Shown here in pieces: positions 195 through 44,818 of a stretch of 64,000 nt of DNA. The notes beneath the pieces were generated by a model. The model had not been told where the DNA came from and ran no database searches. It was given only the letters and a program-made list of their open reading frames with translations. The stretch lies in contig WGLW01000022.1 of assembly GCA_016125405.1 (NCBI GenBank), positions 62,001-126,000 of the forward strand. Direction: 5' to 3'. The stretch's first letter is position 1. Each line of letters starts with the position of its first letter. The stretch is from Alphaproteobacteria bacterium (GTDB lineage Bacteria > Pseudomonadota > Alphaproteobacteria > Caulobacterales > Hyphomonadaceae). The translations under genes were made by a program, and so were the position numbers.

Positions 195-1448
195 GTGAAG
201 CGTATCATCATCTGTTTCGACGGGACTTGGCAGAAGCTGCGTCAGCCGACGCCGACCAATATTGCCTTGATCGCGCGCAGCATCGCCCACACGCACGTTG
301 AGCCGGACGGTAAAGCGATTTCCCAGATCGTGATTTACACCAAGGGTGTGGGCTCCAATACGGACGCCTTGGGTGAAATCGGGGTGATGGACGCCTTCAA
401 TGGCTGGCTGAACCGGGTTCTCGGCGGCGTGTTCGGCGATGGGCTCGAGGATTCCATTGTGGAAACTTATCTCCGGCTGGCCTTCAACTACGAGGCGGGC
501 GATGAAATCTATATCTTCGGGTTCAGCCGCGGCGCCTTCTGCGCGCGGAGTTTTGCCGGCCTGATCGGCAGCGCGGGCATCGTCAGCAGGCTCCATGCCG
601 AACGCGCGTGGGACGCCTTCCGTCTCTATCGGACCCGGCCTGGCGCCAACGCCACTCAGCTCGAGAAAGACGACTACGACCAGAGCCGTCGCGATTTTCG
701 CATGCGTTATGGCAAGGGCCGACGCGCGGATGACGGCACGCGTGTGAGAACCGACGAAGTCCCGCTGATTTCCTATCTCGGCATATTCGAAACGGTGGGG
801 CAGCGCGGGTTGCCCAGCGTTCTGGGGTCCTTTGCGCGCAAGCTGAACCGGCGGTTTGGTTTTCATGACATGGAAATCGGCGAGAACGTGCTGGCGGCCC
901 GCCACGCCGTGGCGATCGATGAATCGCGTCTTGGTTTCCCTCCAACGCTCTGGGAGGGCGTCGAGGAGGCCAATTCCCGGTCGCACTGCACGCCGGGTCG
1001 TCGCCACTATCAGCAGCGATGGTTTGTCGGCACGCATGGCGATGTCGGCGGCGGAGCGGGATCACCCTTGTCGGCGCCGCCGCTCAAATGGGTCGCTGAG
1101 GGGGCTGCGGAATGTGGCCTCAGGTTTTACGCCCGGCATGGGGATGATGAATCCCCGATGGACCAGGCGCTACGCCAGGCGGGTCTTGCCTTTGATGGCC
1201 GGATCACGCGGCCAGGTTTCTGGAACTCGCTCTCGCCGATGAATTATCCTATCTACACGCGGCGCATCTGGGTTTCCAGAAAACGGAAGGCGATGCCAAC
1301 TGCAGACTATGCGGCGAATGTGCTGGACCCGACCGTGGCCCGGCGCGCAGCGGCGAAGAAGCTGCGCTACAGGCCGCCGCCGCTGAAACCCTTCCGGACC
1401 ATTCTGTTGTCTCTGATCGAGCACGACGAACACCCACCGGCGGAATAA
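195..1448 (+). CDS. DUF2235-type alpha/beta hydrolase
   Basis: N-terminus MKRIIICFDGTWQ, internal IFGFSRGAFCAR (GxSxG-like) and WFVGTHGDVGGG motifs typical of DUF2235. Confidence 0.88.
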   Translation: MKRIIICFDGTWQKLRQPTPTNIALIARSIAHTHVEPDGKAISQIVIYTKGVGSNTDALGEIGVMDAFNGWLNRVLGGVFGDGLEDSIVETYLRLAFNYEAGDEIYIFGFSRGAFCARSFAGLIGSAGIVSRLHAERAWDAFRLYRTRPGANATQLEKDDYDQSRRDFRMRYGKGRRADDGTRVRTDEVPLISYLGIFETVGQRGLPSVLGSFARKLNRRFGFHDMEIGENVLAARHAVAIDESRLGFPPTLWEGVEEANSRSHCTPGRRHYQQRWFVGTHGDVGGGAGSPLSAPPLKWVAEGAAECGLRFYARHGDDESPMDQALRQAGLAFDGRITRPGFWNSLSPMNYPIYTRRIWVSRKRKAMPTADYAANVLDPTVARRAAAKKLRYRPPPLKPFRTILLSLIEHDEHPPAE

Positions 1449-1470: not shown

Positions 1471-2478
1471 TCAATTCGCTCCCGGCGATTTGGGTTTCCC
1501 GGCCGCTTTGCGTGCATCCTCGATCCGCTGGGCCTTGAGAATGTTGGGAAGCGAATAATTGCCCTCGTGGCAGGCGTGCTCGAACATTCGCTGGTCGGTT
1601 CGATAGAGCGAGTACTCGGCGAGCCACGGCGCGGTGTAGGTCGAGGGATCGATCACGGTGTACTGGTAGAGCAACTCGTTTTCCGAAAGTCGCGTGTAAC
1701 GTTCAATCACCTTGCCGGTCGTCGGCACGATGAGATTCGAGAAGGCGCGAACTCGGTCCTTGGCGGGCAGGCGGACAGTTTCGATGACCAGCGTGTCGCC
1801 TTCCCAATGCGCGATTGAATCGCCAAGCGAGGACGTCAGCTCCGCTGGTTTGTGCGTCGACGTGAGCGGAATGATGCGGGCCTCGTCGCCATACTCCGTG
1901 TGAAGCACGATCGCGTCCCGCGTCTGGATGATCTGGCGGGGGTTGGCGCTCGTCGTATACATTCCGCTGATCGGAGGCAGCCCCAGGCTCGTGACGCAAC
2001 GTTCCCAGTTCGGTCGTTCCTCCGGATTGTCAGCCTGGTTGGATCCGTAACCGCGGGAGGATTCCTTTCGCGCGGCGTCAGTGTAGGGCAGCCGCCCATC
2101 GGCGGGCTCGACGACAGACCGCGTGCGCCGTTCGCCCCGGACGATCGGCAGGCCATCGGTGACTTGCATCAGCGCGGGCACTTCAGGGTCAAGCTGCTTG
2201 TCAAAGCCGCTGCTTACGCCCTTCGCAACCGCGGCCGCCATTGCCTTGGCAGCAGGCTCGGGCAGCGTCAGCGGAGCATTGGGCGACGCCTCCATCAGGA
2301 TGAGGAAATTCTGGGTCCAAATGCCCTCGAGATCTGGCTGCCCGGATGATGTTCGCGGCGCGGTGTAGGCTTCTGAAGTAACCGGTTGCGGCGCGAGGCC
2401 GGGCGTCTGGCCGGCGGCGAGAGGTGTTACGCAGAGGCAACCGGCGAAAAGGCCGGCTGCGCCCAAATCCGTTCTCAT
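1471..2478 (-). CDS. Exported protein of the PDLxGVW/ACHEGNY family (divergent paralogue)
   Basis: Signal peptide-like start MRTDLGAAGLFAGCLCVTPLAAG; motifs GQPDLEGIW, ERC, GDTLVIET, FEHACHEGNY shared with three other ORFs in this window. Confidence 0.75.
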   Translation of the reverse strand: MRTDLGAAGLFAGCLCVTPLAAGQTPGLAPQPVTSEAYTAPRTSSGQPDLEGIWTQNFLILMEASPNAPLTLPEPAAKAMAAAVAKGVSSGFDKQLDPEVPALMQVTDGLPIVRGERRTRSVVEPADGRLPYTDAARKESSRGYGSNQADNPEERPNWERCVTSLGLPPISGMYTTSANPRQIIQTRDAIVLHTEYGDEARIIPLTSTHKPAELTSSLGDSIAHWEGDTLVIETVRLPAKDRVRAFSNLIVPTTGKVIERYTRLSENELLYQYTVIDPSTYTAPWLAEYSLYRTDQRMFEHACHEGNYSLPNILKAQRIEDARKAAGKPKSPGAN

Positions 2479-38819: not shown

Positions 38820-39080
38820 CTAGGGCGGTGTGGTGGTCGAAGTCGATGGATCGGGCGTTTCGGCGCTGGCGGCGCGCCGTGCGCGTTCTGCCTCCTCGTC
38901 GGCGCGCTTCTTCGCCTTTTCCGCCGCGGCCTTGTCTCGTTCCGCCTTCAGCGTGCGCGGGTCGTTCGGCCCCTCGTTCGGCGGATCGCCCCAGAGCGGC
39001 GGCGGCCGTTCCAAACGGCCCTGAAGTCCGCATGCCGACAGCGCCAGGGCGCAGGCGGCGAGAAGAAGCGTGCGTCTCAC
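38820..39080 (-). CDS. lptM: LptM-like small lipoprotein
   Basis: [34 protein letters not shown]; between argH and lysA. Confidence 0.85.
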
Positions 39081-40471
39081 GTCAGTTTCTCCTTCCAGGC
39101 GGCAACCTGTTCGCGGACGCGTTGCGGCGCGGTTCCCCCATAGCTTTGGCGGCTGGCAACCGAGGCTTCAACTGTCAGGACTGCAAAGACATCCTGGGTG
39201 ATGCGCGGTTCGATCGCCTGCAGCGCGGAGAGGGGAAGGCCGGGCAGGTCCTGGCCAGCTTGTTCGGCCGCTTTCACGGCCATGCCCGTCACATGGTGCG
39301 CATCGCGGAATGGCATGTTCAGCTCGCGCACCAGCCAGTCGGCCAGGTCGGTGGCAGTCGAAAAGCCCGATGCGGCGGCGGCGCGCATGCGCACCGGATC
39401 CGGCGCCATCGCCGTCACCATGCCGGTCATCGCCTGCAACGACAGGTCAAGCGCGTCGAACGCCTCGAACGTCGTCGCCTTGTCCTCCTGCATGTCCTTC
39501 GAATAGGCGAGCGGCAGCGCCTTCATCACGGTCAGGAGGCCAACCAGCGATCCCGTCGCGCGGCCGGTCTTGGCGCGCACGAGTTCGGCTGCATCCGGAT
39601 TGCGCTTCTGAGGCATGATCGACGAGCCGGTCGACCAGGCGTCCGATTGCTTCACGAAGCCGAATTGTGCGGACGACCAGATCACCATTTCCTCGGCCAG
39701 CCGCGAGAGGTGGCCGGCGCAGATCGCCACCGCAGAGAGGCTTTCGAGCGCGAAATCCCGATCGGAAACCGCATCGAGCGAATTCGCCATCGGACGGGCG
39801 AAGCCGAGGGCCTTTGCCGTCATGTCCCGGTCGATCGGAAAGCCGGTGCCCGCAAGCGCCGCGGCGCCGAGCGGGCTTTCGTCCATCCGCGCGATAGCGT
39901 CCCGGAACCGGCCGCGATCGCGGTCCAGCATTTCCACATAGGCCAGGAGGTGATGGCCGAAGGTTACGGGTTGGGCGGTCTGAAGGTGCGTGAAGCCGGG
40001 CATCACCGTTTCTGCGTGCGCTTCCGCCTGGCCGAGGAAGGCCCGCATCAGCGCCTCGATCTGGCCGATCCGGGCCGCACACGCGGATTTGACCCACAAC
40101 CTGAAATCGGTCGCCACCTGGTCGTTGCGCGAGCGCGCGGTGTGCAGCCGCCCGGCCGGGTCGCCGATTATTTCCTTCAGCCGCGCCTCGACATTCATGT
40201 GAATGTCTTCCAGTGCCTTGGAAAATTGCAGTTTTCCTGCGCGAATTTCGTCGAGAACCTGGGTCAGGCCGTCATCGATGGCTTTTGCGTCGGCCTTGGA
40301 GACAATTCCCGTTTTCGCGAGCATCGCGGCATGGGCCTTCGAGCCGGCGATGTCTTCCTCGGCCAGACGCTTGTCCACGTCGATCGAGGCGTTTATCGCC
40401 TGCATGACCTGATCGGGCTTGGCTGAGAACCGGCCGCCCCACATTTGTTGACCCTCGGGCCTTTTGGTCAT
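39077..40471 (-). CDS. argH: Argininosuccinate lyase
   Basis: [49 protein letters not shown]. Confidence 0.97.
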
Positions 40472-40507: not shown

Positions 40508-41137
40508 ATGACGCGACTGCCGAAAACCCCTTTCGTTTCCGCCATAAGCGCCGCTGCGCTTCTCGCACTCTTCGCGGCAGGATGCCAGCGCGACGGCGGG
40601 GCGACGGCTGAAGCCGGCAAAGCGGCGCCGGGCGAAGCGGCTCCTGCCAGCCTCACGAGCTTCAAGACGGGCGATCTCTCCCAGTTGGATTTCGTGAAGA
40701 GCGTGCCGGTGCCGCCATCGTCCTTCATTGACGCGGACGGCAAGGAACACACGCTGGCGGAATACAAGGGCAAGGTGCTGGTGGTGAACATCTGGGGCGA
40801 ATGGTGCGCCCCGTGCGTCGAGGAAATGCCGACGCTGGCGAAACTGCAGAAGGCGTTTCCAAATGGCGACGTCGCTGTCGTCCCCGTGGCGTTCGGTTAT
40901 CCGGAAGACAAGGACAAGGCGATCGCCAAGCTGAAGACGCTCGCCGGCGACACGCTGCCTTTCTATTACGACAGCAGCTACAACGTTTCGTACGACCTCA
41001 AGACCGGGATTTTTCCGAGCACGGTGATCTTCAACAAGGACGGCAAGGAAGTCGCCCGGCTTGAAAAGAACGCCGACTGGTCGAGCGATCGCGCGATCGG
41101 ACTGATCAAGTCGATCCTCGCGGGCAAGACCAGCTGA
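40508..41137 (+). CDS. TlpA-like thioredoxin-fold lipoprotein
   Basis: [11 protein letters not shown] lipobox; [19 protein letters not shown] (CxxC). Confidence 0.92.
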
Positions 41138-41315: not shown

Positions 41316-42434
41316 ATGACAAAACGAATGGGACTGGTTTCAGCTGCGGCGCTTGTGGCCGCCCTGATCGCCGCCCCGGCCATCGGACAGCGGCCTGCGC
41401 CCGCGCCATCGGGCCCGCCATCGGCCGAGGCCGTCAAGGACGCCGCCGCCGCCCTCGCGGCTCCGCGCACGGCGCCAGGCTATGTCGCGCCGCGCCTCAA
41501 GATCGGACAGCCGGACCTGCAGGGCGTCTGGACGAATGCGTCCAACACCAACCTGATGCGGCCGGCCAATTTCGACTCGCTGATCATGTCCGATGACGAG
41601 GCCGCCAAGGCGCGCGCCGACAACTCGTGGAACATTCGCCTCAAGACCGACGACAACCAGAAGCTATCCGATGGCCTCCTGACCGGCGACGACCTCAAGA
41701 AGGGTCGCGGCTACAACGCCTTCTGGATTGATCCCGGCAATAACTACGCCAACGTCAAAGGCACCTGGCGCACGTCTTGGATTGTCGAACCGGCGAACGG
41801 ACAGATCCCCTACAAGCCGGAAGCGCGCAAGGAAATCCGGGTGCGGCGCGGCAACGGCTATGACAATCCGGAAGAGCGCGGCGTCGGCGAGCGCTGCCTG
41901 CTGGGCTTTTTCTCGCCGGGCGGGCCGCCGCTCAACAATGGCGAGTACAACAACGACTATCAGATCACCCAGTCGCCCAACGCGGTGGTGATCGAAGCCG
42001 AAATGGCGCACGACGCGCGCATCATTCCGCTGTTCAAGACAGCGGCGGAGGCGAGGGCGCACCACAAGCCCCCGGCGATCAAACCCTACATGGGCGACTC
42101 GGTTGGCTGGTGGGATGGCGACTCTCTCATGGTCGAAACCATCGACATGAACCCCGAGGGTATGGGGTATGTGAAGCTGTCGCCGACGGGCAAGATCACC
42201 GAGCGCTTCACGCGCTATTCGGCCAAGCAGATCCTCTATGAATTCACCGTCGACGACCCGGCGACTTACACGCAGGTCTGGAAGGGCGAGATGTCGCTGA
42301 ACCCGAGTCCGGGCATCTACGAGTATGCCTGCCACGAGGGCAATTACGGCATGGTCGGCATTCTCAAGGGTGGCCGCGAGGCTGATCGCAAGGGCGTCGA
42401 CAACTCCCGCCCCGGCGACCGCGACGGCGGCTGA
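41316..42434 (+). CDS. Exported protein of the PDLxGVW/ACHEGNY family
   Basis: Signal peptide; [72 protein letters not shown]. Confidence 0.82.
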
Positions 42435-42471
42435 GCGGTTTAAAGCCTGGGGCATTTTCTGCGTTCGCAGA

Positions 42472-42509
42472 TCCGGCCGGTCCAGGTTCTGGGCCGGCCG
42501 GACGCTTTT
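42472..42509 (+). terminator. Intrinsic terminator downstream of the PDLxGVW gene
   Basis: Stem TCCGGCCGGTCC / GGGCCGGCCGGA (one G-U), 7-nt loop, followed by CGCTTTT. Confidence 0.75.
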
Positions 42510-42606
42510 GGAAGACGCCCTGGCCGGGACGACCTAAGAATCCTGCGGGCTTCAGGCGGCGAAGCGCCGCTATCGACAGTTCACATTTCAGGGTAAGGTG
42601 ATCCCC

Positions 42607-42620
42607 TTATACAGGTATAA
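42607..42620. promoter_or_regulatory. Palindrome TTATAC-AG-GTATAA upstream of the XRE regulator; candidate operator
   Basis: Perfect 6-bp inverted repeat, 18 bp before the ATG at 42639. Confidence 0.45.
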
Positions 42621-42638
42621 TTCCTGACAGGATCTGCG

Positions 42639-43481
42639 ATGCCCGCCACGGACGACAACCTGCTCGGCGTCTATCTCAGGGACAGGCGCACCCGGCTCGA
42701 TCCCGCGGCGTTCGGCCTGCCGCTGGCCCGCCGCCGAACGCCCGGCCTGCGTCGCGAGGAAGTGGCCCAGCGCGCCAATGTGAGCGCCACCTGGTACACC
42801 TGGCTTGAACAGGGCCGAGGCGGGGCGCCCTCCGCTGACGTGCTGGACCGGATTTCCCAGGCGCTGATGCTCGCGGAAGTCGAACGCGAACACCTCTATC
42901 TGCTTGCGCTCGGCCGTCCGCCCGAGGTGCGCTATCAGGCCAGTGAAACGGTCTCGGCGCAGCTCCAGCGCGTGCTCGACGCTTTCCCGTTGAGCCCCGC
43001 CTACGTCAAAACTTCCACCTGGGATGTGCTGGCCTGGAACAGCGCCGCCGCCGCCGTGCTGACGGACTACAGCACAATTCCGGCGGAACAGCGCAACATC
43101 CTCCGGGTCATCTTCTGCGAACCCCGCTTCCGCAGTGTGCAGACACATTGGGACCAGGTCGCCCGTTTCGCCGTGGCGGCGTTCCGGGCCGACGTCGCGC
43201 GGGCCGGGGCCGGCAAGACGGTGAAGGCGCTGGTCGATGAGCTGTCGCGGCTCAGTCCGGAATTCGAGGCCATCTGGCGCGCCAACGAGGTTCGCAGCAC
43301 CTATGGCGAGGTCGCCAAGACGCTGCGCCACCCGCTGGCGGGGCCGATCACGCTTGAATACTCGGCGTTTGCGGTCGAGGGGCGACCCGATCTGGACATG
43401 GTGGTCTACAATCCGGCGACGCCTGAGGATTTCGGTCGGGTGCGGTCGCTCCTGGCCGCCCTGGAAAAGGCTTCGATCTGA
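42639..43481 (+). CDS. XRE-family regulator with MmyB-like ligand-binding domain
   Basis: LGVYLRDRRTRLDPA...RRRTPGLRREEVAQRANVSATWYTWLEQGRGGAPSADVLDRIS; AWNSAAAAVLTDYS. Confidence 0.93.
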   Translation: MPATDDNLLGVYLRDRRTRLDPAAFGLPLARRRTPGLRREEVAQRANVSATWYTWLEQGRGGAPSADVLDRISQALMLAEVEREHLYLLALGRPPEVRYQASETVSAQLQRVLDAFPLSPAYVKTSTWDVLAWNSAAAAVLTDYSTIPAEQRNILRVIFCEPRFRSVQTHWDQVARFAVAAFRADVARAGAGKTVKALVDELSRLSPEFEAIWRANEVRSTYGEVAKTLRHPLAGPITLEYSAFAVEGRPDLDMVVYNPATPEDFGRVRSLLAALEKASI

Positions 43482-43612
43482 CAAGTGCTTGATCTGCAGC
43501 TGCGCGGCGCTCTGATCGCTTGTGTCAGGGCCCCGGTTTCGGTCACTATGGGTGGAAATGCGTCTGGCTGGCGTTTCGAGAAGATTGGCCGCGCAACAGG
43601 GAGAGACGATCT

Positions 43613-44818
43613 ATGACCCATTCCACGTCCGCCATGCGCCTGCGGCTCCTGTCCGCCGCCGCAATCGCCGTTGCGCTGGGCCTTTCCGCTGGAACGGCGG
43701 CCGCCCAGACCAGAGCGTCGACGCCTGGGTCGAATTCCTTCCTCGCCAAGATCCCCAAGCCCGGCGACGTCGACGTCACCGAGATGGAGCGGCGCTGGGG
43801 GGGCGTGGCCCATTCTGGCGTCACCGTTGCCGGTCCCGAAACTGATCAGGCCGCGATCAACGCGCCGACGGTTGAAGCGGGCTACAAGGTGCCGCGCCAT
43901 GCCGACGGCACGCCGGATCTCACGGGCGTCTGGTCCAACGCGTCCAACACCACGCTGCGCCGTCCCGGCAACGCGAAGAACCTGGTGATGACGGACGAGC
44001 AGGCGCTGAAGGCCCGCGAGGACAACCCGCAGAATATTCGCCAGGCGACGGATGATCGCCAGAAAACGTCGGATGGCCTGCTGACCGGCAAGGATCTCGC
44101 CGCCGGCCGCGGCTACAACTCGTTCTGGATCGATCCGGGCAACAACTACGCGCTGGTGAAAGGCACCTGGCGCACGTCGTGGATCGTCGATCCGCCGAAC
44201 GGCCAGATGCCCCTCAAGCCCGGCGCCATGCGCCCGCGGCGCGTCGGCACCGGCTATGACAACCCGGAAGAGCGCAACCTCAACGAGCGCTGCCTGATCC
44301 TCGGCACGTCGGGTCCGCCGATCGGCAACTATCTCTACAATAACAACACGCGGATCATGCAGTCGCCCAACGCCGTGGTGATCGAATCCGAGATGATTCA
44401 CGATGCGCGCATCATTCCGCTGGTGAAGACCGCCGCGGACGCCGCCGCAAAGCACCGCCCCGCTGCGCTGGACCAGTGGATGGGCGATTCGGTCGGCTGG
44501 TATGAAGGCGACACGCTGGTGGTCGAAACCACCAACATGATGCGCGGCGGCGGCAGCGCCCCGATGTCGCCGACCGGCAAGATCATCGAACGCTTCACCC
44601 GCTACAACGACAAGCAGGTGTTCTACGAGTTCGAGGTCAACGACCCGAACATGTACACCCAGGTGTGGAAGGGTCAGATGTCGCTGAACGCCAGCCCGGC
44701 GCTCTACGAATACGCCTGCCACGAGGGCAACTACGCGATGCACGGCATTCTTGCGGCGGGCCGCAAGAACGATCGCGAAGGCATCAAGAACGACAGCTCG
44801 ACGGACGGCACCGAGTAG
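43613..44818 (+). CDS. Exported protein of the PDLxGVW/ACHEGNY family
   Basis: Signal peptide; [72 protein letters not shown]. Confidence 0.82.
   Translation: MTHSTSAMRLRLLSAAAIAVALGLSAGTAAAQTRASTPGSNSFLAKIPKPGDVDVTEMERRWGGVAHSGVTVAGPETDQAAINAPTVEAGYKVPRHADGTPDLTGVWSNASNTTLRRPGNAKNLVMTDEQALKAREDNPQNIRQATDDRQKTSDGLLTGKDLAAGRGYNSFWIDPGNNYALVKGTWRTSWIVDPPNGQMPLKPGAMRPRRVGTGYDNPEERNLNERCLILGTSGPPIGNYLYNNNTRIMQSPNAVVIESEMIHDARIIPLVKTAADAAAKHRPAALDQWMGDSVGWYEGDTLVVETTNMMRGGGSAPMSPTGKIIERFTRYNDKQVFYEFEVNDPNMYTQVWKGQMSLNASPALYEYACHEGNYAMHGILAAGRKNDREGIKNDSSTDGTE

Follow-up and report, generated by a model that had tools for sequence, protein, structure and literature searches.

Four related genes for exported proteins lie in the 64,000-nucleotide stretch of Hyphomonadaceae DNA analysed here (the window), and two of them flank a gene for an MmyB-like regulator. 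The locus raises the question of what such proteins do in so many copies, and whether the regulator has any part in it. The four copies, members of what we call the CHEGN family, and the features around the flanked regulator gene are as follows.

1471..2478, minus strand: P0003, CHEGN-family copy of 335 aa, divergent and without the FWIDPG block
39077..40450, minus strand: argH, argininosuccinate lyase, divergent from tlpA; syntenic marker
40508..41137, plus strand: TlpA-like thioredoxin, just upstream of P0001, in the syntenic argH/tlpA/family locus
41316..42434, plus strand: P0001, CHEGN-family copy of 372 aa, with a signal-like N-terminus followed by a GxW strand (G70/W72)
42472..42502, plus strand: 14-bp inverted repeat with 3-bp spacing, just 3' of P0001 and followed by a short run of T
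42639..43481, plus strand: MmyB/MltR-like regulator (HTH_31 and MLTR_LBD), between P0001 and P0002
43613..44818, plus strand: P0002, CHEGN-family copy of 401 aa, 61% identical to P0001
62652..63836, minus strand: P0004, CHEGN-family copy of 394 aa, with an orthologue in genome G312

Each of the four reading frames was open from ATG to stop, with a ribosome-binding-like GGAGAG preceding the ATG of P0001, and the products could be aligned end to end, P0002, P0003 and P0004 being 61, 39 and 47% identical to P0001 over their full length. The motifs picked out by a sequence-only reading of this DNA kept the same order in our alignment. All four copies carried the family signature (PDLxGxW, ERC, E229, GD(S)xGxWEGDTLVVET, ERF and CHEGN; residues are numbered as in P0001 throughout) and every residue that is invariant in the family. 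In P0001, the alignment and predicted structure place a beta meander at residues 214-330, then the ACHEGNY motif and a C-terminal helix. That reading had also assigned signal peptides to all four proteins, and a crude hydropathy test indeed found a hydrophobic, signal-like N-terminal stretch in each, as it did a signal-like N-terminus in 93 of 107 family members; judged by these N-termini, CHEGN proteins are probably exported to the periplasm. Two of its remarks needed amendment. The FWIDPG block is missing from P0003 as described, but it is the family norm (consensus GYNxFWxDPG) and hence was lost from this copy. P0001 and P0002 resemble each other more than any other two copies in the window, but genome-wide another pair is closer, at 77% identity, and in the tree P0001 is equally near a copy on contig C48. 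Adjoining P0003 is a gene whose product has a Tle1-like phospholipase catalytic domain (window positions 195-1448, plus strand; PF09994, E 5e-70).

A profile built from the four sequences recovered all four and, scattered over many contigs of this genome, about 21 more, and in a search with a 76-member HMM the window copies scored between E 2e-89 and 5e-133. The proposed genome-wide expansion therefore holds, at about 25 copies (two-frame rows of one gene merged, and sibling-subfamily genes on contigs C9 and C12 excluded), and it extends to the whole genus: all 14 congeners returned 17-35 or more matches each. Elsewhere in Hyphomonadaceae, genera g156, g159 and g162 gave 3-5, 16 and 33 matches, and six other genera searched gave none. 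A scan of species genomes found at least 587 relatives, the best 80 of which include Hyphomonadaceae, Phenylobacterium, other Caulobacteraceae, Pseudomonadales, SAR86, Steroidobacter/Povalibacter and one Acidobacteria MAG. Evenly drawn samples contained the family in nine of 299 genomes of the phylum and one of 369 genomes of the class of genome G286, so that in other lineages the distribution is patchy. Because 72,556 plasmids yielded no family match and 2.9 million viral contigs only one, we regard the family as chromosomal, and carriage as mobile-element cargo was rejected.

No name could be attached to these proteins, in agreement with the sequence-only reading. Pfam gave no credible match for the four window copies or for 76 members (best E 0.05 among the 76), NCBIfam matched neither the four copies nor any of 110 members, no PDB sequence matched any member tested, and PHROGs held no convincing match. 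A structure search of a viral structure library returned nothing convincing, and literature searches for the family motif strings and for related expansions returned nothing relevant. The CHEGN family is thus unnamed and absent from all protein-family libraries searched. Some 25 genes in a genome of 3.9 Mb, in orthologous lineages kept across genera, therefore amount to a real annotation gap.

We used FastTree on 193 members, including 25 sequences from the window's genome (one of them the sibling-subfamily gene on C9), to ask how old the expansion is. For 18 of the 25, the reciprocal nearest relative lay in genome G311, G312 or G320 and was nearer than any paralogue on either side. Orthologues of P0002 were found in a lake MAG (L031) and, at a tree distance of 0.64, in the congener G311, and those of P0003 in G311, G312 and G320; single orthology calls are uncertain in this tree, notably that of P0001 (support 18). 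Paralogues were mostly 32-48% identical to one another. Since most copies are nearer to orthologues in other genomes than to their own paralogues, the expansion is old and its members distinct: most copies represent long-separate lineages retained in several species, alongside some duplications and losses of recent date. At C42:38913-39898 (L125:12884-13917) and C56:30864-31703 of the same genome, the family match spans two frames, and these are probably decaying copies.

The gene between P0001 and P0002 was correctly recognised as MmyB-like: it encodes an Xre-type HTH (PF13560, HTH_31, E 8e-13) and an MLTR ligand-binding domain (PF17765, E 2e-45), which place it among the MmyB/MltR-like regulators by Pfam score. 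Its position suggested a regulated module, in which the regulator would sense a fatty-acid-like signal and control both flanking copies. The shared strand of the three genes is consistent with such a module, as is precedent from its distant relative MltR, whose crystal structure includes a bound fatty acid, built as myristic acid, and from MltR-type regulators generally, whose putative target is often adjacent (PMC3406030). The association is not conserved, however. No orthologue of the regulator was found in 12 congeners and three other genera, the one match at E 1e-40 or better among these 15 related genomes being a 36% paralogue in G306. An argH gene divergent from tlpA and followed by one or more family genes is syntenic in the window, the lake MAG, Hyphomonas (L032), G311 (L136) and G312 (L154), with lysA beyond argH wherever the locus extends so far (neighbours outside the window were named by eye from translations). 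Two adjacent family genes stand there in L031, L032 and L136 and one in L154, and among the syntenic loci compared only the window has the regulator between the pair. The upstream regions of P0001 and P0002 share no operator-like repeat, and a strong hairpin follows P0001. That hairpin (42472..42502) is possibly a transcription terminator parting P0001 from the regulator, going by its sequence, though a terminator consensus scan placed it below consensus, with too few T. The coupling implied by the sequence-only reading was therefore not upheld, and we consider a regulated module quite improbable. Going by the comparison of loci, the regulator was probably inserted locally into an argH/tlpA-family locus whose synteny is older; it neighbours the CHEGN family without being conserved there, and its presence is no evidence of the family's function.

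To what fold, then, do these proteins belong? The AlphaFold model of P0002 (76-member alignment) had a confident barrel region, and the model of trimmed P0001 (110 members; pLDDT 90.4, pTM 0.88) agreed with it. In the P0001 model, a short GVW strand (70-73) is followed by helices and an insertion, short strands at 150-158, a meander of eight consecutive strands of 6-10 residues each between 214 and 330, the ACHEGN loop and a helix at 338-359. Calycins are antiparallel up-and-down beta-barrels of 8-10 strands that enclose a ligand pocket, and nearly all leading Foldseek matches were calycins: CRBP/FABP proteins came top against the PDB for both models, and streptavidin, UnaG and nitrophorin also matched the trimmed P0001 model. 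Foldseek probability was 0.9-1.0 for most calycin-type matches, but none passed E 0.001 (best E 1.4e-3, with a target-normalised TM of 0.53 at most). The models thus point to a calycin-like up-and-down beta meander and to putative calycin membership, below firm significance.

The likeness to known calycins has clear bounds. In the structure alignments with CRBP/FABP proteins, a meander of about 120 residues was matched at roughly 10-15% identity (E above 0.001, TM 0.53 or less), and sequence similarity was not detected. Intracellular lipid-binding proteins are cytosolic, of about 130 residues, lack a signal peptide and are recognised by a profile match, a description that does not apply to the CHEGN family, whose members look exported, are 330-400 aa long, have no Pfam match and add to the meander an N-terminal insertion and a C-terminal helix as well as a cysteine pair. 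Nitrophorins and streptavidin extend the likeness to lipocalins and avidin. GxW in the first barrel strand is a lipocalin signature, and CHEGN proteins carry a GxW (G70 in 100% of members, W72 in 97%) in a short, predicted N-terminal strand that may correspond to it; a three-residue motif is weak evidence, though, and unlike in lipocalins/avidin an insertion of about 80 residues parts this strand from the remainder, with no lipocalin Pfam match.

Across 110 members, down to about 30% identity to P0001, the residues R193, C194, E229, G260, E296, C339, H340, E341 and N343 were invariant, as were G70 and G162, and 65 of the 110 had no cysteines beyond the invariant pair. Strands 7 and 8 showed a conserved face (E296, F298 and R300; Y308, F310 and V312) and a mostly variable opposite one. 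Topology of the model would bring the E229 loop, the R193-C194 segment that precedes the first long strand and the E336-C339-H340-E341-N343 loop that follows the last one together at one end of the meander. With a polar site common to all paralogues and variation elsewhere, the pattern favours a single chemistry or a shared head group over freely varying pockets.

Our preferred reading, which we hold tentatively and at less than even confidence, is that CHEGN proteins are extracytoplasmic calycin-like binders, maybe enzymes, of small lipophilic molecules. Each would be an exported, probably periplasmic, single-domain protein composed of a signal peptide, a GxW strand, a variable insertion, a barrel of the calycin kind and a closing C-terminal helix. 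The invariant cysteines of ERC and ACHEGN may be linked by a disulfide, anchoring the C-terminal loop to the segment that precedes the barrel, and, with E229, E296, H340, E341, N343 and R193, could make up one charged site at the barrel end and interior. Each paralogue might have its own small lipophilic molecule in the periplasm to bind and perhaps to act on, with a common polar group held by the shared site and specificity provided by the N-terminal segment and the loops; on this view the expansion would mirror the multitude of hydrophobic nutrients or signals with which these bacteria deal. Favouring this are the signal-like N-termini, the copy number, the old and distinct paralogues, the two agreeing models with their calycin-type matches, the cysteine pair, the conserved strand face and the acyl-CoA-type genes found near some copies. 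The earlier suggestion, that the copies are perhaps exported binding proteins or enzymes each specific for a substrate or condition, agrees with the old, orthologue-conserved paralogues and the modelled barrel. The binder reading is weakened by conservation of the presumed barrel interior, whereas binders of different ligands would most simply show variation there, by Foldseek matches short of the E 0.001 criterion, and by neighbourhoods in which no gene type was clearly enriched.

Alternatively, the proteins could be extracytoplasmic enzymes on a calycin-like barrel, with the invariant E/E/H/E/N/R set as an active site for one chemistry (hydrolysis, isomerisation or hydration, for example) on paralogue-specific substrates. 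Nine residues that stay invariant even where identity to P0001 falls to about 30% would suit a catalytic site, as would the alternation of E296 and R300 with aromatic or hydrophobic residues on the conserved strand face. However, neither Pfam nor NCBIfam showed similarity to any enzyme family, no conserved operon partner names a pathway, and the same residues could be structural or hold a common head group, so we regard this alternative as somewhat unlikely. In its broadest form, which seems to us doubtful, the proteins would be a new superfamily of extracytoplasmic calycin-like enzymes, each genome having dozens of paralogues with substrates of their own and one invariant E/E/H/E/N active site; in oligotrophic Alpha- and Gammaproteobacteria and Acidobacteria they would perform a so far overlooked periplasmic step with which the use of many hydrophobic natural compounds begins. 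Cell-envelope structural or stress proteins, duplicated and kept for dosage with no dedicated ligand, could account for copies that mostly stand alone beside varied housekeeping genes and for those that look disrupted (such as the two-frame copy at C42:38913-39898), as in birth-and-death evolution; interchangeable dosage copies, in contrast, would not be expected to persist as orthologous lineages across genera or to have diverged to 32-48% identity in most pairs, which makes this explanation unlikely. Surface or secreted cell-contact factors (for competition, adhesion, or phage or predator interaction) diversified by conflict would likewise be exported, divergent, numerous and patchily distributed, yet the core is conserved rather than hypervariable, the orthologues are old and vertical, plasmids gave no match and viral contigs one, and toxin, immunity or secretion genes were not seen as recurrent neighbours; we find such a role highly improbable. 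If the calycin reading is true, many environmental bacteria would gain a large periplasmic set of carriers or enzymes for lipophilic molecules, and the invariant CHEGN/E/R site opens the idea to direct test by mutation and ligand binding.

Copies were mostly solitary among varied genes. Acyl-CoA ligase, acyl-CoA dehydrogenase, thiolase and CoA-transferase genes (named by eye) lay near some copies in several lineages, a recurrence due in part to a single syntenic block shared by several loci of Pseudomonadales and other Gammaproteobacteria. When near and far genes of the same loci were compared, no neighbour type survived correction for 18 tests, and TonB receptors were not enriched near copies. 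A PQQ dehydrogenase partner was considered since 10 of 106 copy clusters lay near one where 2.4 were expected (P about 1.5e-4, five related genomes, post hoc), but it was not upheld in 80 independent loci, where the frequency did not fall with distance (9 of 539 genes at positions 1-4 versus 4 of 260 further off). A DUF6152 partner was also set aside; it was near in six loci, mostly beside the sibling subfamily described below (Fisher P 0.026, uncorrected for the 18 tests). On contig C23 of the window's genome, a tandem pair of copies (L123:12171-15521) stands between HxlR-type and MarR-type regulator genes.

The family HMM also matched a sibling subfamily, 'PDLxGVW ... CVEF' (E 2e-24 for the example at C9:55069-56280, L133:6147-7934), likewise without a Pfam family. 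It has the same core motifs as the CHEGN family and two cysteines at the same places, but no CHEGN motif, and H340 and N343 are not kept. A remote relative of 190 aa at C12:1718-2032 (L134:1559-2131) comprises the barrel part only, with both cysteines, and its called ORF is without a signal-like start. In several lineages (also L038, L033, L059 and L097), a DUF6152 (PF19649) gene comes next after the sibling gene (PDLNGVW ... KCVEF), in the same orientation, and from their arrangement the two look like an operon. In a Ponticaulis MAG (L104:5775-13085), a DUF6152 gene comes after a run of about six consecutive family copies.
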